DNA from: an uncultured Brevundimonas sp.
Lineage (GTDB): Bacteria > Pseudomonadota > Alphaproteobacteria > Caulobacterales > Caulobacteraceae
NCBI GenBank assembly: GCA_946885435.1
Contig: CAMPGL010000061.1
Location: 1 to 11,273 of the forward strand
Direction: 5' to 3'
Length of the DNA: 11,273 bases
The notes under the pieces are model-generated. The model had not been told where the DNA came from. It worked only from the letters and a program-made list of their open reading frames with translations, and made no database searches. Shown here piece by piece: positions 1-11,273 of the stretch. Position 1 is the first letter of the stretch; every line of letters begins with the position of its first letter. Both the position numbers and the translations under genes were made by a program.

Positions 1-2
1 GA

Positions 3-290
3 GGAAACCCGCGCCGGCTGCCGCGGATCCTCTCCGCCCACGCCCGCCCAGACCCCTTGCTCGGCCTGCTCCGTCGCATTGACGAAGGGCCCGAACGGAT
101 GCGCGCGCACGGCTATCTCAACAGGGGCGGGACGCTCGATCCCTTCGGCATGCTCTTCGCCAACCGCTGCACCTGGGCCCATCTGCTTGGCTCCGCCGCC
201 AGCCTCCTTCGCAGGGAGGCGGGCGCCTTCCTCGCCGCCGACGAGGCGGCGGCCGTCCTGGGCCAGGGCGATCCGAACGTGCTCCGTTAG
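3..290 (+). CDS. Probable phosphoketolase, C-terminal fragment (5' end outside window)
   Basis: The reading frame is open from the window edge to a TAG at 288-290, so this is the 3' end (95 codons visible) of a longer gene; an in-frame TTG at 57 is probably internal. A visible segment, GYLNRGGTLDPFGMLFAN followed by RCTWAHLL, aligns without gaps to the end of xylulose-5-P/fructose-6-P phosphoketolases as I remember them (GY, a GT-rich turn, PF-x-M, then N and HL at the same spacing). Those enzymes cleave xylulose-5-P with phosphate to acetyl-phosphate and glyceraldehyde-3-P using thiamine diphosphate in the cytoplasm. The thiamine-binding parts lie outside the window and cannot be checked. 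The downstream phosphoribosyl genes fit a pentose-phosphate role. The assignment rests on one short motif plus context; another transketolase-like or unrelated enzyme remains possible. Confidence 0.6.
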   Translation, partial: GNPRRLPRILSAHARPDPLLGLLRRIDEGPERMRAHGYLNRGGTLDPFGMLFANRCTWAHLLGSAASLLRREAGAFLAADEAAAVLGQGDPNVLR

Positions 291-294
291 CGGC

Positions 295-308
295 TTGACC
301 AAGGTCAA
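295..308. promoter_or_regulatory. FNR/FixK-type binding site upstream of the RNase-phosphorylase operon
   Basis: The sequence TTGACCAAGGTCAA contains the core TTGA-N6-TCAA used by FNR, FixK and Dnr regulators. Its six-base arms TTGACC and GGTCAA are perfectly inverted around AA. It starts 5 bp after the upstream stop codon and its centre is about 58 bp before the TTG start at 360. If it acts as a class II activator site at -41.5, transcription would begin near 343, leaving a short leader that contains the Shine-Dalgarno sequence. No convincing -10 hexamer is visible at that spacing. Confidence 0.55.
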
Positions 309-346
309 TGCGCGGGGGCCAGCTTCGGCCAGGCTGTCGGAGTTGC

Positions 347-353
347 GGGAGGT
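347..353 (+). promoter_or_regulatory. Ribosome binding site that fixes the TTG start at 360
   Basis: GGGAGGT lies 6 nt before the TTG at 360. The reading frame has no better-placed ATG or GTG, and the protein family begins with a beta strand matching the residues right after this TTG, so the rare start codon is supported. Confidence 0.65.
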
Positions 354-359
354 GCGGCC

Positions 360-1717
<1,358 letters not shown>

Positions 1718-1721
<4 letters not shown>

Positions 1722-3235
1722 CGCCCGCCGCCCCGCCGCCGGATCACACGCTGCGGGCGCGACGCCTGGGCCTGATCACGCAGGACGAGCCGGTCGTCCT
1801 GGTGCGGGCCGACTCCTATGTGGGCCGCGCCGAGGGCGTGGCCCCGCGGTCGCAGGTGCTGGTGACGTCCCGGAAGGGAGCCGTCACGGCCACTCTCTAT
1901 CATGTGACCTCCGACCTGCTCGGGCCGATGGAGATCGGCCTTTCCGAGGCGGCCTGGCGACGCCTGTGCGTCGAAGACGGCGACGAACTCGCGGTCTGTC
2001 ACCCGCCTCCCCTGGAGTCCTTGACCGGTCTGCGCCGGCGCATCTTCGGCGAGCGGCTGAGCGAGCGGGGCTACGCGGCGCTGGTCGGAGACATCGTGGC
2101 CGGGCGGTACACCGACGCCCATTTGGCGGCCTTCATCGCGGCCAGCGCGGCCTTTCCCCTCGACCTGACGGAAACCACCCACCTGACGAACGCCATGGTG
2201 AACTCGGGTCAGAGGATCAGCTGGTCCAGGCCCCTGGTCATCGACAAACATTGCGTCGGGGGGCTGCCCGGCAACCGGACCAGCCCCATCGTCGTGGCCA
2301 TCGCAGCCGCGGCCGGACTGATCATCCCCAAGACGTCGTCGCGCGCGATCACCTCCCCCGCCGGCACGGCAGACGTCATGGAGGTCCTTATGAAGGTGGA
2401 TCTGGACATCCCCCATGTCCGCAAGGTGGTCGAGGCCGAGGGCGGCTGTCTGGTCTGGGGCGGCCGGATGGAGCTGAGTCCCGCCGATGAGGTCCTGGCC
2501 CGCATGGGGCGGATGCTCGAGATGGACGTAGAGGGCCAGCTCGTCGCCTCCATCCTGTCGAAAAAGGTGGCCGCGGGCGCGACGCATGTCGTCATCGACA
2601 TCCCGGTCGGGCCCACCGCCAAGGTGCGTACGCCGGCCGCCGCGGCGTCGCTCATCGAGCGGCTGGTGGCCGTGGGTCGGGCCCTGGACCTGGAGGTGCG
2701 GTGCCTGGTCAGCGACGGACTTCAACCGGTGGGCCGAGGCATCGGCCCGGCGCTGGAGGCGCGCGATGTGCTGGCCGTGCTCGGGCGTGAACCAGACGCG
2801 CCGACGGACCTTCGCGAACGGGCCCTGGCGGTCGCCGGCCTGGTGCTCGAGTTGGGACGCCTCGCCTCGGGAGGCGGCGGCGTGCAACTGGCCCGAACCA
2901 TCCTCGACGATGGCCGCGCCCTGAAGAAGTTCGAGCGCATCCGGCGTGCCCAGGGTGGTGTCCGCGCTCCGACCGACGCCCCCCTGCGGCGCGACTGGCC
3001 GGCGCCGACCAGCGGCGCCCTGGTCCACATCAACAACCGCAAGCTGGCCCGGGTGGCCAAGCTCGCCGGCGCCCCGGACGTCAAGGCCGCGGGCCTCGTG
3101 AGGCACGTGAGCCTGGGCGCCTCGGTGGTGGCCGGCGAGCCGCTGATGACCGTGCACAGCGCCGCGGAAGGCGAGCTCCAGTACGCTCTGGACTACGCCC
3201 GCGCCAACCCGGACATTTTCGGGATCGAGACATGA
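1718..3235 (+). CDS. Thymidine/AMP phosphorylase family protein (type 2, with N-terminal extra domain)
   Basis: This 505-residue enzyme belongs to the pyrimidine-nucleoside/AMP phosphorylase family, which splits a nucleoside or nucleotide with phosphate to a free base and ribose-1-phosphate or ribose-1,5-bisphosphate. It carries an N-terminal domain of about 95 residues that the 440-residue E. coli DeoA lacks but archaeal AMP phosphorylases have. The phosphate-binding motif is DKHCVGGLPGNRTS at 176-189, and KTSSRAITSPAGTAD follows at 205-219. Both look closer to AMP phosphorylase (GG-x-PGN) than to classical thymidine phosphorylase (DKHSTGGVGD). The annotation pipelines' usual name is putative thymidine phosphorylase; true substrate preference cannot be read from the sequence. 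The ATG at 1718 overlaps the previous stop by 4 bp without its own strong ribosome site, and the end overlaps the next gene in the same way. In-frame codons upstream of 1718 belong to the preceding gene's region. Confidence 0.9.
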
Positions 3236-4107
3236 GCTGCTTCGTCGCCATGCCGGGCAACGAGGCGATGGCCCGGGCGCTCGCGCAGGCGACCGGGGGC
3301 TCCTGGCTGCGGGCCGAGGTGCGCCGGTTCCCTGACCGCGAAAGCCACGTGCGTCTTTCTGAGCCGGTCGAGGGGCTCAAGGTGGTCGTGGTCTGCACCC
3401 TGGATGACCCGGACCCGAAGACGGTTCCCCTGATCCTGGCGGCCGGAGCCGCCCGGGACAACGGCGCGGCCTGCGTGGGGCTGGTGGCGCCCTATCTGGC
3501 CTACCTCCGCCAGGACGCCGTCTTTGGAACCGGAGAGCCGTTGAGCGCCCGACACTACGGACGCCTCCTCGCCGGGGTCTTCGACTCCCTGATCACCGTG
3601 GATCCTCATCTGCACCGGATCGACCGGATTGGCGACATCTTCCCCGGCCCGGTGGTGGCGGTGCAGGCCGCGCCGCTCCTCGCCGACTGGGTGCTCGCCA
3701 ACGTCCAGCGGCCCGTGGTGATCGGACCTGACGCGGAAAGCCGCCAGTGGGTCGCCGAGGTCGCCGAACGCGCGGGCGCGCCCTGGACCCTTATGGAAAA
3801 GCAACGGCTGGGCGACGAAACGGTCCGTCTGCGCCTGCCCGACCTGTCGGAGTATCGCGGGCGGACCCCCGTCCTGGTCGACGACATCATTTCGACGGGA
3901 GTCACCCTGACCCAGGCCGCCATGGAACTGCGACGGCTCGGCTTCGCGCCGCCCGTGTGCCTGGCCGTCCATGCGCTGTTCGCCGCAGAGGCGGCCTGGT
4001 CCAGCCTCCGGGCGGCGGCGAGCCGGGTGGTGACCACGGACACCGTGCCCCACCCGTCCAACGGCGTTTCGATAGGCCGGGCGATCGCCGAGGCCCTGCG
4101 CGGATAG
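3232..4107 (+). CDS. prs: Ribose-phosphate diphosphokinase (PRPP synthetase) family protein
   Basis: The 291-residue protein has the order of motifs of PRPP synthetases, which transfer pyrophosphate from ATP to ribose-5-phosphate: RFPDRES at 32-38, PYLAYLRQD at 87-95, the TVDPH segment at 122-126, GPDAES at 165-170, the flexible-loop KQRLGDE starting at 190, and the PRPP-binding loop VLVDDIISTGVTL at 214-226. It is shorter than the 310-320-residue housekeeping enzymes. Several motifs deviate: DPHLHR replaces the usual DLHxxQ, GPDAES replaces SPDxGG, and DDIISTG replaces DDMIDTAG. This suggests a specialised or archaeal-like paralogue rather than the main cellular PRPP synthetase. It overlaps the phosphorylase gene by ATGA, so it probably acts on that enzyme's sugar product directly or after isomerisation (inference). 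It ends 20 bp from a convergent gene, with no clear terminator between. Confidence 0.87.
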   Translation: MSCFVAMPGNEAMARALAQATGGSWLRAEVRRFPDRESHVRLSEPVEGLKVVVVCTLDDPDPKTVPLILAAGAARDNGAACVGLVAPYLAYLRQDAVFGTGEPLSARHYGRLLAGVFDSLITVDPHLHRIDRIGDIFPGPVVAVQAAPLLADWVLANVQRPVVIGPDAESRQWVAEVAERAGAPWTLMEKQRLGDETVRLRLPDLSEYRGRTPVLVDDIISTGVTLTQAAMELRRLGFAPPVCLAVHALFAAEAAWSSLRAAASRVVTTDTVPHPSNGVSIGRAIAEALRG

Positions 4108-4127
4108 CGACGGCTGGCCTCTGTCCC

Positions 4128-4331
4128 TCAGCGAAAGGCGGGCCCGAGGCCGATTCCCAGTCGCTTGAACACCAGAGCGGCGGGGCAGAAGCCGGTGAAC
4201 GCCGCCTGGATCATGTTCAGGGCCGCAAAGACGGCGAGCAGAATCCAGGCCGGATGGACCCAGCGAGCGAGCGCGATGCTGGTCAGCACGACCAGACCGG
4301 CGAAGACGAACACGGCCTTGTCGACGTTCAT
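4128..4331 (-). CDS. DUF2892 (YgaP-like transmembrane domain) small membrane protein
   Basis: This 67-residue protein has two hydrophobic helices (about residues 6-22 and 28-45) followed by the TGFCPAA motif at 46-52 and a short basic tail. That matches the DUF2892 domain that forms the membrane part of E. coli YgaP; here there is no rhodanese domain. DUF2892 proteins commonly sit beside sulfide- or thiosulfate-handling genes, and here the gene overlaps the SQR gene upstream by ATGA. A GGAG ribosome site also lies about 8 nt before the ATG. The conserved Cys49 after the second helix may matter for sulfur chemistry, but its role is unknown to me. It probably sits in the inner membrane as part of the SQR unit. 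Confidence 0.88.
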   Translation of the reverse strand: MNVDKAVFVFAGLVVLTSIALARWVHPAWILLAVFAALNMIQAAFTGFCPAALVFKRLGIGLGPAFR

Positions 4332-5632
4332 GAATGCATCTCCGGCTGTCGAACGGTGGGGCGCAGCTTGGGCGCGCCGATGAGGTCGAGGACGAGTTTC
4401 TCGTAGATCGGCTCGCTCTGGCCGGACTTCACCTTGTGGAGGAAGTACTTCTCGAAGGCGATCTTGGCGGCGTGGACCCAGCCGCCGCTGGCCGACCAGT
4501 TGATGTTGCGCGGCGGAATCTGCGGCTGGGCCATGAAGGCGACGCCGCCGTCGCCGAAGTCGGCCAGACAGATGGCGTTCCAGGTCGCTTCGTGCGTCGG
4601 TGCTTCGCCCGACAGCAGCTGCTTGAGATTGGCCGCTACGGCGGAAACCATGCTCTCGATCATGAAGCCGGTCTTGGGCACGCCGACCGGTACGGGCGTG
4701 GGGCCCGTCGGCGGGATGGCGATGCAGACGCCGACGCCGAAGATGTTCGGATAGGTCGGATTGCGCTGGTGCTTGTCCACCAGGATGAAGCCGCGCGGGT
4801 TGGTCAGGCCATCGACGCCGCGCACCGCGTCGACTCCGCGGAAGGCCGGCAGCATCATGGAGAAGCTGAACGGGAGGTCGTGGGTGGCCTTGACCTGCCC
4901 GCCCTCAGCGACCTCTTCGACATGCATCACGCCCGCATCGACGGACGTCACGCGGGCGTTGGTGATCCACTTGATGTGCCGCTGGCGCATCTCGCTTTCG
5001 AGCAGGCCCTTGGTGTCGCCGACGCCGTCCAGGCCGAGGTGGCCGACGTAGGGCTCCGACGTCACGAAGGTCATGGGGACGCGGTCGCGCACGCGGCGAC
5101 GGCGCAGCTCGGTGTCGAGGATCATCGCGAATTCGTAGGCCGGGCCGAAGCACGAGGCGCCCTGCACCGCGCCGACCACTATGGGCCCCGGGTTCGCCAC
5201 GAGGGCGGCGAAGGCCTCGCTGGCCCCGACGGCATGGCCGACGTGACAGACTGACTGCGTGTGGCCATCGGGTCCGAGCCCGGGGATTTCGTCAAAGGCC
5301 AGTTCGGGTCCCGTCGCGACGACGAGATAGTCGTAGGCCAGCACACGGCCGTCCTCGAGCTCGAGCTGATTTTCCTGCGGGCGCACCCTGGCGGCGCCCA
5401 CGCCGACGAACCCTATCCCCCGCTTCTCCATCACGGGCGGCAGGGCGACCTCGATGGCGTCGCGCCGGCGCCAGTTGACCGCGACCCACGGGTTCGAGGG
5501 CACGAAGTGGAAGGTCTCGCCCTTGGAGACGACGGTCAGTTCGACACGGTCCCCAAGGACATGCCGCAGCTCGTAGGCGGCGATTACGCCGCCGAGGCCC
5601 GCTCCCAGCACGATGACGACAGGCTTGCTCAC
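4328..5632 (-). CDS. sqr: Sulfide:quinone oxidoreductase (FAD-dependent)
   Basis: With the GTG start at 5632 the protein has 434 residues. It opens with the FAD-binding GAGLGG at 10-15 and has the second flavin motif VVATGPE at 104-110. Three cysteines match the redox-active set of sulfide:quinone oxidoreductases: C129 (SVCHVGHA), C161 (GASCFGPAYE) and C355 (ICLADFGDGG), almost the same numbering as the well-studied Acidithiobacillus enzyme. TPVPVGVPKTGFMIE at 312-326 is also typical. Such enzymes sit on the inner membrane, oxidise sulfide to polysulfide or a persulfide and pass electrons to quinone. The GTG start has GGAGG 5 nt upstream; an ATG at 5644 (GGAGG 11-12 nt away) and one at 5695 are less likely. 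An FNR/FixK-type site lies upstream. Having all three cysteines argues against a plain type II NADH dehydrogenase. Confidence 0.9.
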   Translation of the reverse strand: MSKPVVIVLGAGLGGVIAAYELRHVLGDRVELTVVSKGETFHFVPSNPWVAVNWRRRDAIEVALPPVMEKRGIGFVGVGAARVRPQENQLELEDGRVLAYDYLVVATGPELAFDEIPGLGPDGHTQSVCHVGHAVGASEAFAALVANPGPIVVGAVQGASCFGPAYEFAMILDTELRRRRVRDRVPMTFVTSEPYVGHLGLDGVGDTKGLLESEMRQRHIKWITNARVTSVDAGVMHVEEVAEGGQVKATHDLPFSFSMMLPAFRGVDAVRGVDGLTNPRGFILVDKHQRNPTYPNIFGVGVCIAIPPTGPTPVPVGVPKTGFMIESMVSAVAANLKQLLSGEAPTHEATWNAICLADFGDGGVAFMAQPQIPPRNINWSASGGWVHAAKIAFEKYFLHKVKSGQSEPIYEKLVLDLIGAPKLRPTVRQPEMHS

Positions 5633-5637
5633 GCCAA

Positions 5638-5642
5638 CCTCC
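5638..5642 (-). promoter_or_regulatory. Ribosome binding site deciding the SQR start
   Basis: On the minus strand GGAGG at 5642-5638 is followed by TTGGC and then GTG at 5632, an ideal 5-nt spacing. It lies inside the alternative reading from ATG 5644, whose own upstream GGAGG is about 11 nt away. If the FNR-like box works at -41.5, transcription would begin near 5647 and the leader would contain just this site, which favours the GTG. Confidence 0.5.
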
Positions 5643-5681
5643 ATTTTCGAGCATTCCTCCCAGAGCCGACCGAGACCCGCC

Positions 5682-5695
5682 TTGAGATGGATCAA
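5682..5695. promoter_or_regulatory. FNR/FixK-type binding site upstream of SQR
   Basis: The sequence TTGAGATGGATCAA has the TTGA-N6-TCAA core, extended on both sides by C and G to a perfect CTTGA-N6-TCAAG dyad. It differs from TTGAT-N4-ATCAA by one base. Its centre lies about 56 bp before the GTG start of SQR. A class II position (-41.5) would put the start of transcription near 5647, with a weak AGGAAT at 5658-5653 as the -10 element. Confidence 0.55.
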
Positions 5696-5732
5696 GGAGC
5701 CGCAGAGCGGTCAGCCGCAGCCTTGTCGGGGC

Positions 5733-5761
5733 TTGCGTCTATGATTAGCACTATCTAATAT
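5733..5761 (+). promoter_or_regulatory. Candidate sigma70-type promoter of the RND efflux operon
   Basis: TTGCGT at 5733-5738 and TAATAT at 5756-5761 are separated by 17 bp and resemble -35 and -10 elements (3/6 and 4/6 matches). The start of transcription would fall near 5768, about 9 nt before the ATG of the adaptor gene, so the message would be almost leaderless. The -10 element lies inside the tandem dyad at 5744-5775, so a bound protein would block it. Confidence 0.4.
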
Positions 5762-5775
5762 TAGGGCAAGCTAAT
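5744..5775. promoter_or_regulatory. Tandem dyad operator: two adjacent ATTAG-N6-CTAAT sites
   Basis: Copy 1 is ATTAG-CACTAT-CTAAT (5744-5759) and copy 2 is ATTAG-GGCAAG-CTAAT (5760-5775). They touch without a gap, so the arms form one larger symmetric array with CTAATATTAG (5755-5764) at its centre. The spacers differ while all four arms are identical, which indicates selection on the arms. This is the most AT-rich stretch in a very GC-rich window. TA-rich palindromes over a -10 region are typical of ArsR-family repressors, including the sulfur-sensing BigR/SqrR group that controls sulfide genes; that link is inference. It abuts the adaptor start codon (5777) and lies between divergent operons. 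Confidence 0.72.
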
Positions 5776-5776
5776 T

Positions 5777-6808
5777 ATGGAGCAGCCTGTGCGAGTCCTG
5801 CCGCCCCCCCTTCTTCTTGTCGGCGCGCTCGTGGTCGCCGTCTCGCTGTCGGGATGCGGCGGACACGAGGACGCTCCGCCGGCGCCCGCCGCGGCCCAGG
5901 GCGAACGCCTCACGGTGGTTCGCGCGGCGATCCCCGACATGAAGGCCGTGCCGGCGGTCGTCGCCTCGCGGGATCTCGGCGAGGCCCGCGCCCGCATCGG
6001 CGGCGTGCTGGTTCGTCTGGACGTGCGCGAGGGCGACCAGGTGCGTGAAGGCCAGGTGATCGGCGTGGTCGTCGACGATCGCATCGGCATGCAGACCGCC
6101 GTCCAGGATGCGCTCGTCGCGGCGGCCGAAGCCGAAGCCGGACGGGCCCGCGCCGACTTGTCGAGAATCCAGTCCCTGTTCGATCAGGGAATCTACGCTC
6201 AGGCCCGGCTCGACCAGTCCCGCGCGGCCTATGAGGCGGCGGCGGGCCAGGCTCGGGCGGCGCGGGCCCAGCGGGCCGCCACGGCGGAGCTCGGGGCCCA
6301 GGGACGGATCCTGGCCCCCGCCGCAGGTCAGGTCCTGACCGCAGATGTGCCTGAGGGCTCCGTCGTGACGCCGGGCCAGTCCATCGCCACGATCACCGCC
6401 GGGCCCCTGGTCGTGAGGCTCGAGGTTCCGGAGGCGCAGGGTCGCCTCCTGAGGATGGGACAGACAGTCGAGGTCGAGAGCCTCGCCCAGCCCGGCGTCA
6501 TCACCCAGATCTACCCGGCCGCCACCGCCGGCCGCATCGTCGCCGACGTGGCGGCGCCCGGCCTCGACCAGCGCGGCGTCGGCCAGCGGCTGGAGGTGCG
6601 GCTGTCCCTCGGCGAGCGCCAGGCCATCGCCATCCCCCGCCGGTTCGTCGCGACCCGTTTCGGCATCGACTATGTCCGCACCGTCGGTCCCGGTGGGGCG
6701 GCGGTCGAGGCGCCGGTCCAGCTGGGCGTCGACCTGCCCGACGGCCGGGTCGAGGTCCTCTCCGGCCTGGCCGAAGGCGACGTCGTCGTGCCGGCGGAGG
6801 CCCGCTGA
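5777..6808 (+). CDS. RND efflux periplasmic adaptor lipoprotein (membrane fusion protein)
   Basis: The 343-residue protein begins with a hydrophobic signal and a lipobox LSGC with Cys27, so it should be a lipid-anchored periplasmic protein. A lipoyl-like half (about 71-98, GVLVRLDVREGDQVREGQ) is followed by an Ala/Arg/Glu-rich coiled-coil hairpin (about 105-172), the second lipoyl half (173-207) and beta-barrel and membrane-proximal domains to the end. This is the standard order in HlyD/AcrA-type adaptors that link an RND pump to an outer-membrane channel. The stop overlaps the pump start as TGATG. No Shine-Dalgarno sequence precedes the ATG, and an in-frame TAG at 5762-5764 prevents an upstream start; near-leaderless translation is likely. 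No metal-binding His/Met clusters are seen, so a metal-exporter role has no support. Confidence 0.9.
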   Translation: MEQPVRVLPPPLLLVGALVVAVSLSGCGGHEDAPPAPAAAQGERLTVVRAAIPDMKAVPAVVASRDLGEARARIGGVLVRLDVREGDQVREGQVIGVVVDDRIGMQTAVQDALVAAAEAEAGRARADLSRIQSLFDQGIYAQARLDQSRAAYEAAAGQARAARAQRAATAELGAQGRILAPAAGQVLTADVPEGSVVTPGQSIATITAGPLVVRLEVPEAQGRLLRMGQTVEVESLAQPGVITQIYPAATAGRIVADVAAPGLDQRGVGQRLEVRLSLGERQAIAIPRRFVATRFGIDYVRTVGPGGAAVEAPVQLGVDLPDGRVEVLSGLAEGDVVVPAEAR

Positions 6809-9800
6809 TGCGACTGGGCCTTTCCGGGCGCCTGACCCAGGCGACCCTCAAGTCACCGCTGACGCCCCTGATGCTCCTGGCGGCCATCGCCGTCGGTCTC
6901 ATGGCGCTGCTCAGCATCCCCCGCGAGGAAGAACCGCAGATCAGCGTCCCCATGGTGGACGTCATGGTCGCGGCGCCGGGCCTCAACGCGTCGGACGCCG
7001 TCGAACTGGTCGCCGAACCCCTGGAGGCCATCGTCAACAGCATCGACGGGGTGGAGCACGTCTACACCCAGGCCGAGGACGACCGGGTCATGGTGACCGC
7101 CCGCTTCGAGGTCGGCTCCGATCCGGACGACGCTGCGGTACGGGTGCACGAGCGCATTCGCGCCAACTACGGCGACATTCCTGTCGGCGTCAGCGAGCCG
7201 ATCATCACGACCCGCGGCATCGACGACGTGCCGGCCCTGATCCTGACCCTGACGCCGGCCCCCGAGGCGGTCGGACGCTGGAGCGACCAGGCCCTCTACG
7301 AGGTGGCCGGTCGCCTGCGAGCGGAGATCGCCAAGGTCGACAACGTCGGCCAGACCTTCATCGTCGGCGGGCGACCGTCGGAGATCCGCGTCGAGCCGGA
7401 TCCCGCCCGCATGAGCCTGCGGGGCGTTCCGCTGTCGTCCCTGCTCGAGACCGTGAGCCAGGCCAATCGCAGCTTCCCGGCCGGCGCGGTGCGGGAGGAC
7501 GGCTCTGCCGCCGCGCTCAGGATCGGCGAACGCCTCCGTACTCCCGAAGACGCCTCGCTCCTCACCGTCTCGTCGGTCGGCGGCGATCCGGTCTATCTGC
7601 GGGACGTGGCCGACATCGTGCTGGCGCCGCGCGAAGACCAGGCGCGGGTCGCCCACTATGCGCGCGGCGAAGAGGGGTGGAACCGCACGCCTGCGGTCAG
7701 CCTGGCCGTCGCCAAGCGGCCCGGCGCCAACGCCGTCGTTCTGTCGCACGACCTGCATGCGCGGCTCGACCAGCTCCGCGGCTCGCTGATCCCCGAAGGC
7801 CTCGAGGTCGTGATCGCGCGCGACTACGGCGAGACGGCGAACGAGAAGGCCAACGAGCTGCTCTTCCACCTGGGCCTGGCCACGGTGTCGATCGTCGTCC
7901 TGATCGGCTTCGCCATCGGCTGGAGAGAGGCGGCGGTGACCGCCGTGGTCATCCCCACCACCATCCTGCTGACGCTCTTCGCTTCGAACCTGATGGGCTA
8001 CACCATCAACCGCGTCAGCCTGTTCGCCCTGATCTTCTCGATCGGCATCCTCGTCGACGACGCCATCGTCATCATCGAGAACATCGCCCGCCACTGGGCC
8101 ATGAACGACGGCCGCAGCCGCGCCGAAGCCGCCGTCGAGGCCGTGGCCGAGGTCGGCAATCCGACCATCGTGGCCACCCTGACCGTGGTGGCGGCGCTGC
8201 TGCCGATGCTTTTCGTGTCCGGCCTGATGGGTCCCTACATGGCGCCGATCCCGGTCAACGCCTCGGCGGCCATGGTCTTCTCCTTCTTCGTGGCCGTGGT
8301 GCTGGCGCCCTGGCTGATGATCCGACTGGCGCGCCGCGCCCTGGCCGCCGGCCATGGCCACGGGGAGAGCGAAGGCTGGATCGGACGGCTCTATCGGCGT
8401 TGGGCCAGCCGGGTCATCCGCACGCGCCGCAGCGCCTGGATGTTCCTCGGCGCGGTCGGGATCGCGACGCTGCTCGCCATGTCCATGTTCGGCCTGCGCG
8501 CCGTGCCGGTGAAGCTGCTGCCTTTCGACAACAAGTCCGAACTCCAGGTCGTTCTCGACATGCCCGAGGGCACGAGCCTGGAGATCACCGAACGCACCCT
8601 GGCGGCGGCGGCGGTCATCACCCAGGGCGTGCCGGAAGTGATCGCCATCCAGAGCTATGCGGGGACCGCGGCGCCCTTCAACTTCAACGGGCTGGTGCGT
8701 CACTATTTCCTGCGCGACCGGCCCGAACAGGGCGACCTGGCGGTGGCGCTCAGCCACAAGGGGGAACGCGATCGCGCCAGCCACGCCATCGCCATCGATC
8801 TGCGCGAACGGCTGTCTGAGCTCAGCCTGCCCGACGGCGCCTCGCTCAAGGTGGTTGAGGCCCCGCCCGGACCGCCGGTGCTGGCCACCCTCCTGGCCGA
8901 GGTCTACGGCCCCGACGCCGAGACGCGCCGGGCCGTGGCTCGCCGGATCGAGGCGATCTTCCGGGACGAGCCCTCGATCGTCGACGTCGATAACAGCTTC
9001 GGCGAGCGGCGGCCGACGCTCCGGCTCACGCCGGTGCGCGAGCGGATCGAGCGCTTTGGGCTCCAGGAACGCCAGGTTCACGACACCGTCGGAGCTCTGA
9101 TGGGCGGATCGACCCTGGGCTACGCGGCGCGCGACGAGGGTCGGACCCCGGTGGAGATCGCCGTGCGCCTGCCCCAGTCGGAAAGGACCTGGAGCGAGAC
9201 CCTAGCCACCCTGCCGGTGGCGGTCACGACCTTGGGCGGCGCGCCCCGTCTGGTCGAGCTCGGCGAGGTGATCGAGGCGCGCCGGGAACTCGCCAGCTAT
9301 CCGGTCTATCGTCGGGACGGGCGCGACGCCGAGATGGTCATGGCCGAGCTGGCCGGCCGCTACGAGGCCCCGATCTACGGGATCCTGGCCGTGGGCGACG
9401 CGATCGAGGCGGCGGACTGGGGCGATACGCCCCGCCCCGAGGTCCGCCTCAACGGCCAGCCCGACGATGAAAGCCGCCCGACGGTGCTCTGGGACGGCGA
9501 GTGGGAGATCACCTGGGTGACCTTCCGCGACATGGGCGCGGCCTTCGGGGTGGCGCTGGTCGGCATCTACATCCTGGTGGTCGCCCAGTTCCGCGACTTC
9601 CGCCTGCCGCTGGTGATCCTGACGCCCATCCCGCTGACCCTTATCGGGATCGTGATCGGTCACATGCTGTTCGGAGCGCCGTTCACCGCCACCTCGATGA
9701 TCGGCTTCATCGCGCTGGCGGGCATCATCGTGCGGAACTCCATCCTGCTGGTGGACTTCATCGAGCATGCGCGAGCGACCGGACGTCCCCTCAAGGAGGT

Positions 9801-10023
9801 TCTGCTGGAAGCCGGCGCGATCCGCTTCAAGCCCATCCTGCTGACGGCGCTCGCGGCCATGATCGGGGCGGCGGTGATCCTGTTCGACCCCATCTTCCAG
9901 GGCCTGGCGATTTCGCTCCTGTTCGGGCTGATGTCCTCCACCCTGCTGACGGTCCTGGTGATCCCGGCGATCTATGTGGCGCTGAAGGGCGGTGAACCGG
10001 CCGCTGGTGAAACCGTCACATGA
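6808..10023 (+). CDS. RND efflux pump, inner-membrane permease (AcrB-like)
   Basis: The 1071-residue protein has the full RND architecture: first membrane helix near 18-36, a periplasmic porter domain, a helix bundle from about 354 to 520, a second porter domain, and a C-terminal bundle from about 910 on. The proton-relay pair is visible as GILVDDAIVI with D417 and D418. In the tenth helix the usual lysine of AcrB (K940) is an arginine, R976, in GIIVRNSILLVDF. It uses proton flow to export small molecules from the periplasm or inner membrane; the substrate cannot be read from the sequence. GGAGG in the adaptor gene lies 7 nt before its ATG, supporting the start. No outer-membrane channel gene is next to it, so it would share a TolC-type channel encoded elsewhere. 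Its place opposite SQR hints at a role in sulfide or electrophile stress (inference). Confidence 0.93.
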   Translation: MRLGLSGRLTQATLKSPLTPLMLLAAIAVGLMALLSIPREEEPQISVPMVDVMVAAPGLNASDAVELVAEPLEAIVNSIDGVEHVYTQAEDDRVMVTARFEVGSDPDDAAVRVHERIRANYGDIPVGVSEPIITTRGIDDVPALILTLTPAPEAVGRWSDQALYEVAGRLRAEIAKVDNVGQTFIVGGRPSEIRVEPDPARMSLRGVPLSSLLETVSQANRSFPAGAVREDGSAAALRIGERLRTPEDASLLTVSSVGGDPVYLRDVADIVLAPREDQARVAHYARGEEGWNRTPAVSLAVAKRPGANAVVLSHDLHARLDQLRGSLIPEGLEVVIARDYGETANEKANELLFHLGLATVSIVVLIGFAIGWREAAVTAVVIPTTILLTLFASNLMGYTINRVSLFALIFSIGILVDDAIVIIENIARHWAMNDGRSRAEAAVEAVAEVGNPTIVATLTVVAALLPMLFVSGLMGPYMAPIPVNASAAMVFSFFVAVVLAPWLMIRLARRALAAGHGHGESEGWIGRLYRRWASRVIRTRRSAWMFLGAVGIATLLAMSMFGLRAVPVKLLPFDNKSELQVVLDMPEGTSLEITERTLAAAAVITQGVPEVIAIQSYAGTAAPFNFNGLVRHYFLRDRPEQGDLAVALSHKGERDRASHAIAIDLRERLSELSLPDGASLKVVEAPPGPPVLATLLAEVYGPDAETRRAVARRIEAIFRDEPSIVDVDNSFGERRPTLRLTPVRERIERFGLQERQVHDTVGALMGGSTLGYAARDEGRTPVEIAVRLPQSERTWSETLATLPVAVTTLGGAPRLVELGEVIEARRELASYPVYRRDGRDAEMVMAELAGRYEAPIYGILAVGDAIEAADWGDTPRPEVRLNGQPDDESRPTVLWDGEWEITWVTFRDMGAAFGVALVGIYILVVAQFRDFRLPLVILTPIPLTLIGIVIGHMLFGAPFTATSMIGFIALAGIIVRNSILLVDFIEHARATGRPLKEVLLEAGAIRFKPILLTALAAMIGAAVILFDPIFQGLAISLLFGLMSSTLLTVLVIPAIYVALKGGEPAAGETVT

Positions 10024-10193
10024 CCCAGGCCACATCACCCGCCACCGCCACGCCCGAAGCTCTCGCCCGGCTGGAGGCGGACGCGGCGCGCCGCCCACAG
10101 GCAGAAGTGGTTCACCTTCTCCGCTGGCGCGCGTGCCAATCATCGGATGAAGGTCTCAACTGGTCCCTTGAGAAAGTCGCCAGGTTTTCGTGA
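10020..10193 (+). pseudogene. Short ORF overlapping the pump gene; possibly the truncated start of a lost gene
   Basis: An ATG at 10020 overlaps the pump stop as ATGA, the same coupling used elsewhere in this window. The frame runs 57 codons to TGA at 10191. The first 36 or so residues (MTQATSPATATPEALARLEA and on to VVHLLRW) look like a normal GC-rich helical protein start. After about 10135 the codon use changes, becoming less GC-biased at third positions up to the stop. This suggests that a longer third operon gene was cut here, perhaps when the resolvase-like gene arrived. I do not recognise the product. It could also be a genuine tiny protein or chance. Confidence 0.33.
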
Positions 10194-10210
10194 GCCCCTT
10201 GGCCGGGGTC

Positions 10211-10822
10211 CTAGGGCCGTCCCGCGCCGCGCGGCTGCTTGCTGATCGCCTTCCAGACGTCGTCGGGCGCGACGCGCATGATGAGGCCGATGGTGCGCAG
10301 CGGCTCCCCTTCGCTGAACAGTCGCCGGGCATATTTGACCTGCACTTCGGACAGGGTGGCCGTGCGCGGACGCCGAGCATGGCCGGTGTCGGCCGCCTGC
10401 CGGTGGCTCGACGCGAAGGCGACGAGGGTGCGCATCGCCTCGGCGACGGGTTCGAGGGGGGAGATCACAGAGGTGTTTTCGGCCTCCACAACCTTGATGG
10501 TCACCCCGGTCTCAAGCAGCCCTCGCACCAGACGCAGCAATTCGGGCAGTGAGCGCCCAAAGGCGTCCAGGCCAGTCACGTGCACGGTGGCGCCGGCTCC
10601 GAGACCCGCCACAAGCTGATCGAGCTGCTGACGACCGCGGGCGTCATGGCTGATACGCCAGAAGGCGCCGGCGCCGGCCGAGGCCAGCTGGCGCTCCTGC
10701 TGCCCTTCGGACAGGGCCGCGCCCAGATGAATCAGGCCGATGCTCCTCGCGCCGAGGTCCGCATCGCCCGCTTCGCTCGAATGTTCTTCGACCGCCATCA
10801 TGAGGATGGGATAGCGGGGCAT
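10211..10822 (-). CDS. Resolvase-like serine recombinase homologue with degenerate active site
   Basis: From the ATG at 10822 the protein has 203 residues. Residues 27-115 follow the resolvase fold (RSIGLIHLGA, then GATVHVTGLDAFGRSLPELL, then GVTIKVVEAE), and 157-195 form a resolvase-type helix-turn-helix (LSEVQVKYARRLFSEGEPLR onwards). The usual YARVS motif reads LIHLG, so both the catalytic serine and the nearby arginine are gone. The DRLGR motif reads DAFGR, keeping only R90, and the later FER-x2-I-x-ER helix is absent. It is therefore probably not a recombinase; a DNA-binding protein with a dimeric resolvase fold is more likely. The frame stays open upstream to an ATG at 10990, but that would overlap the divergent gene; ATGs at 10801 and 10798 are also possible. 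No good ribosome site marks any of them. Confidence 0.68.
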   Translation of the reverse strand: MPRYPILMMAVEEHSSEAGDADLGARSIGLIHLGAALSEGQQERQLASAGAGAFWRISHDARGRQQLDQLVAGLGAGATVHVTGLDAFGRSLPELLRLVRGLLETGVTIKVVEAENTSVISPLEPVAEAMRTLVAFASSHRQAADTGHARRPRTATLSEVQVKYARRLFSEGEPLRTIGLIMRVAPDDVWKAISKQPRGAGRP

Positions 10823-10951
10823 TGCGACGGAGCGTCGACCCACCGGTGAAGGTTTTTCGGCACGCTTGCGTCGCTTCGGGCACGACCGCTTGCCGATTAC
10901 ACGCACGGCCTGTGTCACACGGCCACAATCAATACCCGCTACGGCAGCCGC

Positions 10952-11273
10952 GTGACCGAGTTCATCACCGCCCTGCCGCTGCTGCATCATCCCGTCTTTC
11001 TGGGAGTGCTCGGGACGATCGTCGGCAGTTTCCTGGCCCTTGTGAGCCGGCGGCTGCCGGCCGGCGAGCCCGTCGTTGCCGCCAGATCCCGGTGCGTCGC
11101 CTGCTCCCGGACTCTGGCGCCGGCGGAGCTGATCCCTGTCATCAGCTGGCTGGCCCTGCGCGGCCGTTGCGCCGGCTGCCGCGCGCCGATCTCGCCTCGC
11201 TATCCCCTGATCGAGGCCTCGGCCGCGTTCCTGGGCGTCTGGGCGGGGCTGGCCCAGCCCGGGTGGGCCAGCC
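10952..11273 (+). CDS. Prepilin peptidase (type IV leader peptidase), N-terminal part; runs off window
   Basis: The first 107 codons are visible. Residues 20-36 (GTIVGSFLALVSRRLP) form the first membrane helix with the GSF...RLP signature of the family. The cytoplasmic zinc/methylase loop follows with C48-x2-C51 and C73-x2-C76, then SPRYPLIE at 81-88 leading into the next helix. Such enzymes cleave and N-methylate type IV prepilins or type II secretion pseudopilins in the inner membrane. The four cysteines identify the long bifunctional PilD/GspO type rather than the short CpaA type. The catalytic aspartates lie beyond the window. The GTG at 10952 is the best start by length of the N-terminus, but no clear ribosome site precedes it, and the frame is open for at least 20 codons upstream without an ATG. 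Confidence 0.87.
   Translation, partial: MTEFITALPLLHHPVFLGVLGTIVGSFLALVSRRLPAGEPVVAARSRCVACSRTLAPAELIPVISWLALRGRCAGCRAPISPRYPLIEASAAFLGVWAGLAQPGWAS

Follow-up and report, generated by a model that had tools for sequence, protein, structure and literature searches.

The ArsR-family repressors SqrR and BigR, as described in text passages of the cited papers, have sqr, rhodanese and sulfur dioxygenase genes among their targets and use 16-bp palindromes with the outer bases ATT...AAT that overlap promoters (PMC9774250, PMC5823870, PMC9995734). The deduced SqrR site is ATTC-N8-GAAT (PMC9774250), and the cysteines of the SqrR sensor pair, C41 and C107, lie 66 residues apart (PMC9995734). For YgaV of E. 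coli, the text of one report, figures apart, describes similarity to the SqrR site, a transcription start 28 bp before the ygaV start codon and a YgaV footprint near this start (PMC9774250). NolR, which regulates symbiosis genes, reads the box (A/T)TTAG-N9-A(T/A) (PMC12445080, PMC8960804), a consensus that is not a full palindrome; it is described as lacking cysteine, and its Gln56 is reported to contact an A or T base (PMC8960804). The hydrogen peroxide sensor RexT has the site ATTCG-N15-CGAAT (PMC8960804), and Rv2034, also an ArsR protein, reads a different palindrome (PMC3338718). Here we describe two abutting 16-bp palindromes between the gene for a sulfide:quinone reductase (SQR) and an RND efflux operon in 11,273 nucleotides of DNA from an uncultured Brevundimonas sp. 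(assembly GCA_946885435.1, contig CAMPGL010000061.1, positions 1 to 11,273), referred to below as the window. Sequence comparison makes it very likely that these twin palindromes are bound by an ArsR-type repressor of the reactive-sulfur-sensing kind.

Abutting palindromes ahead of the RND operon

The two sites, ATTAGCACTATCTAAT (5744..5759) and ATTAGGGCAAGCTAAT (5760..5775), have no strand, both match ATTAG-N6-CTAAT exactly and follow each other with a gap of 0. They were the only 16-mers of this form with up to one mismatch among the 11,273 bases (0.01 expected), and a search for the whole 32-mer that tolerated as many as three mismatches gave one occurrence in the window (0.00 expected). 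Window sequence and chance counts thus bore out an earlier note on this DNA, which had reported four exact ATTAG/CTAAT arms in two sites without a gap. The sites resemble those of SqrR and BigR in palindrome length, outer bases and promoter overlap, and differ from them in their arms, which are ATTAG/CTAAT and not ATTCx/xGAAT, and in being two and abutting (PMC9774250, PMC5823870, PMC9995734). Set against the SqrR site they read ATTA-N8-TAAT. Both also fit the NolR box on either strand, and the RexT site belongs to the same half-site family with a much wider spacing.

The closest likeness in geometry was found at the ygaV promoter of E. coli K-12 (L266, 2674-2705), where TTTAGAGTTTACTTAA and TTTAGAAAATACTTAA abut, giving TTTAG-N6-CTTAA twice and ending 6 bp before the ATG. 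This tandem was noticed by eye and then found to lie within two mismatches of the WTTAG-N6-CTAAW double pattern that was already in use (0.00 expected). The described transcription start of ygaV lies inside the first of the two sites. Both loci have abutting 16+16 sites, in E. coli just before ygaV and with the footprint near the transcription start (PMC9774250); ygaV differs in its arms, in the position of the transcription start in the first site and in being without an RND pump. No such tandem abutting operator was found in the titles, abstract openings and text passages, figures apart, of the papers listed for BigR/SqrR, NolR, SqrR together with RND efflux, and Caulobacter ArsR.

The layout was compared among orthologous spacers. 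Relatives of the adaptor encoded by the first gene of the RND operon (E up to 1e-40) were found at 102 places in 99 of 299 Caulobacteraceae genomes, and 107 sequences were examined, namely 100 adaptor regions, the loci L001 (a Brevundimonas metagenome-assembled genome, adaptor 85%) and L002 (Peiella sedimenti, 70%), the window, and four loci on plasmids. Group I, as used below, consists of the window together with the nine loci whose adaptors resemble its own most closely (61-85%; L001, L002, L080-L086), all without an intervening rhodanese gene; 83 more distant spacers complete a comparison set of 93. The tandem ATnnG-N6-CnnAT x2 was present with at most one mismatch in all ten group I spacers, and with at most two in 49 of the 83 more distant ones compared to 1.3 expected from shuffles. 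When inner spacers of 3-9 and gaps of 0-5 were combined in a grid, matches peaked at spacer 6 and gap 0; apart from the runner-up, considered below, no other geometry gave more than 8. The central palindrome CTAATATTAG, which spans the junction, lies between the genes in all ten group I loci, and the outer arms drift in L001, L002 and L082-L086, with a degenerate left arm of site 1 in L002. The arms form a series from ATTAG in group I over ATTAGCAATTGCGAAT in the intermediate L112 to ATTCG-N6-CGAAT in L092, L144, L150, L153 and L160, and these last five spacers hold the published SqrR site exactly. Conservation of the dyad in orthologous spacers, on which the earlier note had staked its proposal, thus held in the closest loci and, with drifted arms, in 49 of the 83 others.

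Conserved phasing suggests how the palindromes are placed relative to the promoter of the adaptor-RND operon. Of the 59 spacers with the tandem, 50 have a TTG[AC] whose first base lies exactly 10 nt upstream of the left site; the distance is 11 nt in the window, where TTGCGT (5733..5738, + strand) is the likely -35 box. The likely -10 box, TAATAT (5756..5761, + strand), follows after 17 bp and coincides with the junction of the two sites, in agreement with the predicted overlap of the dyads with the -10 element. With this phasing site 1 would occupy the interval that separates the -35 from the -10 element, the -10 region would fall on the junction, and the expected transcription start would be covered by site 2. 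A sigma-70 consensus scan did not call the adaptor-RND promoter, so that its assignment rests on conservation. The second site had further been described as ending one base before the adaptor start codon. It does end at 5775 with an ATG at 5777, but the true start is more likely the GTG at 5789, because the ATG of position 5777 is missing in L002, and the window, L001 and L002 have GGAG-N6-GTG in common. GGAG (5779..5782, + strand) would be the Shine-Dalgarno sequence for this GTG, and the operator would then end just before it.

ArsR-family genes linked to the palindromes

The complete genomic sequences of L001 and L002 each contained a single exact 16-mer, in both cases in the SQR/RND spacer. 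Among the 299 Caulobacteraceae genomes we counted 110 exact 16-mers in 78 genomes and, for the reversed motif used as control, 65 in 58 genomes (site totals summed from hand-copied per-genome figures). Because this enrichment was mild, our claim rests on the context of the sites and not on their number. Context was examined at 60 loci, taken from the matches listed together with L014, L046, L048 and L049, and at 30 loci out of the 65 control sites; one listed place, G039:C8, was left out and falls in the L080 SQR/RND spacer. The loci are not independent events because the genomes are related. Among the matches listed, 41 of 60 loci had the site between -6 and +33 bp from an extrapolated gene start, belonging to an ArsR-family gene in 34 cases and to the adaptor in seven, and none of the 30 control loci showed such a placement. 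In three of five further loci, the arsR-rhodanese loci L183, L189 and L234, the site lies 15 bp before the rhodanese gene. In the other two, L212 and L232, it lies between genes for a rhodanese and for a metallo-beta-lactamase (MBL) protein that is a relative of the persulfide dioxygenase ETHE1 (4chl, E=8.1e-20).

A motif search blind to proteins had thus returned ArsR-family genes, many of them of the SqrR/BigR/YgaV kind, together with sulfide and persulfide genes and a clean control, which largely supports the ArsR/BigR reading suggested in the earlier note. Its remark that the SQR and DUF2892 genes resemble targets of such sensors agrees with the position of both genes beside the site, and with the rhodanese and ETHE1-related MBL genes at other exact sites. 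In a set of 385 alphaproteobacterial genomes we found three perfect double sites (WTTAG-N6-CTAAW twice), that of L001 and those of L280 and L286, and each of the three is flanked by a divergent operon that contains a DUF2892 gene. In L280 an arsR gene starts 18 bp downstream of the double site and encodes cysteines in LLILCKL and HYC, 66 residues apart as in SqrR. With up to two mismatches, double sites were present in 24 of the 385 genomes versus 39 for the reversed control (hand count), which is not above chance, and the three perfect double sites alone were used for this reason. One of the two-mismatch matches, L281, also lies before an arsR gene.

In 86 of the 107 sequences the RND gene is followed by an ArsR-family gene of like orientation. 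The remaining 21 comprise 12 sequences that stop inside the RND gene or shortly past it, three loci in which arsR overlaps the RND end and falls outside the counting rule (L159, L164, L170), three with arsR on the opposite strand (L132, L151, L158), two with none (L161, L179), and the window with its fragment. In L088, L110, L140 and L177 the RND operon begins with an ArsR-type gene placed between those for SQR and rhodanese. Most of the retrieved loci have SQR and DUF2892 genes beside the operon, and a rhodanese gene is often present as well. The ArsR of L001 has an ArsR-type winged helix-turn-helix with a match to PF01022, and the closest solved relatives are 13ct and 6o8k (E=2e-21; entries titled ArsR family regulator), which we take to be SqrR.

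The earlier note had seen no ArsR-type gene in the window. There is indeed no intact copy, but a truncated arsR start (10020..10193, + strand) overlaps the RND stop codon and was recognized by its similarity to L001 ArsR: from the ATG at 10020 it matches residues 1-32 of that protein (65% identity, E=1.3e-6). DNA similarity to L001 stops near 10078 and protein similarity at about 10121, and the frame closes at 10193. The gene is thus broken after about 20-30 codons and is followed by a resolvase-like gene (10211-10990). For the segment with the resolvase gene, neither a plasmid match nor clear transposon flanking repeats were found, and the truncation is either natural or an assembly join. The closest relatives, L001 and L002, have an intact arsR that either overlaps the RND gene at its end or comes after it.

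Genes carrying the palindromes fall into three classes. Class I is the SQR/adaptor-RND arrangement with two sites and a gap of 0. Class II, arsR-rhodanese(-DUF2892), mostly has a single site, mostly 9-10 bp upstream of the gene, and class III, arsR-SRPBCC/AHSA1, has two exact sites with a gap of 2 bp in 12 of 13 loci (L180, L185-L188, L192, L223, L227-L230, L235). ArsR sequences were aligned in 51 rows (9 of group I, 29 of class II and 13 of class III) from 48 distinct loci, as L034, L036 and L041 repeat L199, L201 and L206. The recognition helix has Q62, S66, Q67 and H68 in all 51 rows; Q62 corresponds to Gln56 of NolR (PMC8960804), as judged from its place in this helix and not from an alignment. 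The sensor cysteines differ between the classes. Cys42, the first sensor cysteine and the equivalent of SqrR C41, is present in 86 of 86 RND-linked ArsR, and Cys104, 62 residues on, in 75 of them. The nine group I proteins all have Cys42, Cys65 and Cys104, unlike the cysteine-free NolR of the published description (PMC8960804), and have Gly or Arg at 108. In class II, Cys42 and Cys108 occur at the SqrR spacing in all 29 rows (26 distinct loci), this spacing being that of the published C41-C107 pair; the printed alignment ends before residue 108 of the SqrR chain. Residue 65, in the recognition helix, is Cys in 9/9 of group I, Leu (28) or Val (1) in class II and Ile or Val in class III.

Proposed control of the operon and competing explanations

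We consider it highly probable that the dyads form a double operator for a winged-helix ArsR repressor of the SqrR/BigR/YgaV/NolR branch that is released by persulfide and mostly encoded last in the adaptor-RND operon. Each 16-bp palindrome would be the site of one ArsR dimer. Two dimers side by side would cover the region from behind the -35 box through the -10 box and transcription start to the Shine-Dalgarno sequence, probably in a cooperative manner, and would block RNA polymerase. Repression would extend to adaptor, RND and arsR genes, the gene of the repressor itself included. The neighbouring SQR and its partners would oxidize sulfide to persulfide and polysulfide (sulfane sulfur), which could link two cysteines of the repressor, so that it leaves the DNA and the pump and repressor genes are switched on. 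In the window the repressor gene is truncated, and control, if any remains, must therefore come from a paralogue elsewhere. That the arms are intact although arsR is broken points to a recent loss or to control in trans by such a paralogue, and a paralogous class does use the same 16-mer.

Several observations weigh against this proposal. Exact sites were only mildly more frequent than control sites, and 14 of the 60 loci had no ArsR, adaptor or rhodanese query match near the site (in seven of these the neighbouring open reading frames were also inspected by eye). In 34 of the 83 more distant spacers, plasmid loci L010-L013 included, the tandem was not matched within two mismatches, and the next-best geometry, spacer 8 with gap 0, still matched 24 of the 83. 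The second cysteine of RND-linked ArsR stands four residues short of the SqrR spacing and is Ser in 11 of 86, and the NCBIfam BigR model NF040642 scored 68.7 bits on RND-linked ArsR, below its cut-off of 155. Class III ArsR have Cys at none of positions 42, 65, 104 and 108, yet the same arms precede their genes. The cognate arsR of the window is broken. Relatives can also use other sites, as seen from the 17-bp imperfect palindrome bound by HlyU (PMC4330345) and from a YgaV site at katG without the SqrR motif (PMC9774250). Because of the position of the second cysteine and the BigR score, which set it apart from SqrR/BigR, we do not class RND-linked ArsR as a member of that group. Because the cysteine-less class III genes carry the arms as well, the arms do not identify a ligand or prove a sulfur sensor; they point to an ArsR protein, and gene context and Cys42 point to sulfur, as two separate arguments.

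A first rival explanation is an ArsR double operator whose signal is a metal, hydrogen peroxide or another thiol oxidant, or haem instead of persulfide. Such a signal would fit the arms before cysteine-less ArsR genes and the shifted, sometimes replaced second cysteine, and within the family RexT senses hydrogen peroxide, while a redox-sensing role has been proposed for HlyU (PMC8960804). We regard it as unlikely, since SQR and DUF2892 genes, often with rhodanese, are neighbours of the operon in most retrieved loci, paralogous sites precede rhodanese and ETHE1-related MBL genes, and class II ArsR keep both cysteines at the SqrR spacing in every row. The class II genes lead to another arrangement, in which their product binds the operator mainly in trans and RND-linked ArsR has a different role. 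Their exact 16-mer close to the gene start and the four perfect arms kept in the window despite its broken arsR speak for it, as does genome G002, in which an RND-linked ArsR occurs alongside a class II-type locus (L018) whose site has one mismatch. The draft genome G001 had no class II-type site within one mismatch, and in other groups the operator arms differ while RND-linked ArsR stays, so that we see this arrangement as rather unlikely.

The number of binding units might also be smaller, with one dimer on the central CTAATATTAG palindrome and accessory outer arms. Invariance of this centre in the window and the nine closest loci, next to drifting outer arms in seven of them, would be expected in this case; the -10 box alone can account for constraint at the junction, however, and the mostly single class II 16-mers, which lack the central palindrome, and the 2-bp gap of class III pairs indicate that the centre is not fixed. 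A single central dimer is therefore quite improbable. We give very little credence to a chance dyad or the operator of an unrelated TetR or MarR regulator: twin palindromes are known for TetR-type repressors, but association with ArsR genes and the conserved geometry argue otherwise, and no TetR or MarR protein was present among the seven open reading frames of the window scanned with Pfam and NCBIfam.

With a persulfide-released double ArsR operator as the preferred explanation, the general kind of the system is known; new would be the variant, in which a double operator of the SqrR/BigR/YgaV type has NolR-type arms and is placed next to SQR, ahead of an RND operon. It would function like the SqrR/BigR system, although RND-linked ArsR is not classed within it. 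An RND efflux pump would thereby be tied to sulfide oxidation via a defined layout of operator, repressor and promoter, which could be tested with one protein and 32 bp of DNA. A single geometric rule (16+16, gap 0) would link the sites of SqrR, NolR and YgaV, and the natural series of operators and sensor cysteines might show how DNA reading and ligand sensing of a repressor evolve apart. A wider and more tentative idea, which we would not put at even chances, is that sulfur-sensing ArsR have an old module, common to Alphaproteobacteria and E. coli ygaVP, in the form of an abutting 2 x 16-bp operator which overlaps the core promoter or forms it. Its geometry would have been kept while half-site letters and sensor cysteines drifted independently, the sensing pair of RND-linked ArsR would have moved to Cys42/Cys104 with, in the group nearest the window, a third cysteine in the recognition helix, and the RND pump would be a dedicated exporter of reactive sulfur products.

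Neighbouring genes and the FNR/FixK-like box

The SQR gene (4328..5632, - strand; PDB 3sz0, E=3.3e-145) more likely starts at the GTG at 5632 with the Shine-Dalgarno sequence GGAGGT than at the TTG at 5695 of the open reading frame list, and its cysteines, read from the sequence, lie in SVCHV, GASCF and GVCIAI. Next to it lies a gene for a transmembrane protein (4128..4331, - strand; PF11127) whose DUF2892 domain is YgaP-like by its Pfam name, a further likeness to the YgaV-YgaP system; this domain is presumably present in YgaP itself. On the other side of the spacer follow the genes for the RND periplasmic adaptor (5777..6808 from the ATG, + strand; HlyD families, TIGR01730 RND_mfp) and the RND permease (6808..10023, + strand; ACR_tran, PF00873, E=2.3e-147).

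On the SQR side of the spacer, TTGAGATGGATCAA (5682..5695, no strand) differs by one mismatch from TTGAT-N4-ATCAA, which we take to be the FNR/FixK-type consensus. With up to two mismatches such a box was found in 61 of the 93 spacers compared to 4.1 expected from mononucleotide shuffles; the window is not counted among them, as its spacer had been trimmed to the TTG 5695 where the open reading frame begins. All ten group I loci have the box; it starts 71-74 bp ahead of CTAATATTAG in nine of them, and in L002 the distance is 55 bp. It is well placed to activate SQR at low oxygen, which suggests an oxygen-linked control, and SQR itself may be driven mainly from this separate box rather than from the ArsR sites. 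Adjoining the sulfide genes, positions 360-4107 of the window hold a cluster of MBL/beta-CASP nuclease-like, AMP/thymidine phosphorylase-like and ribose-phosphate diphosphokinase-like genes.
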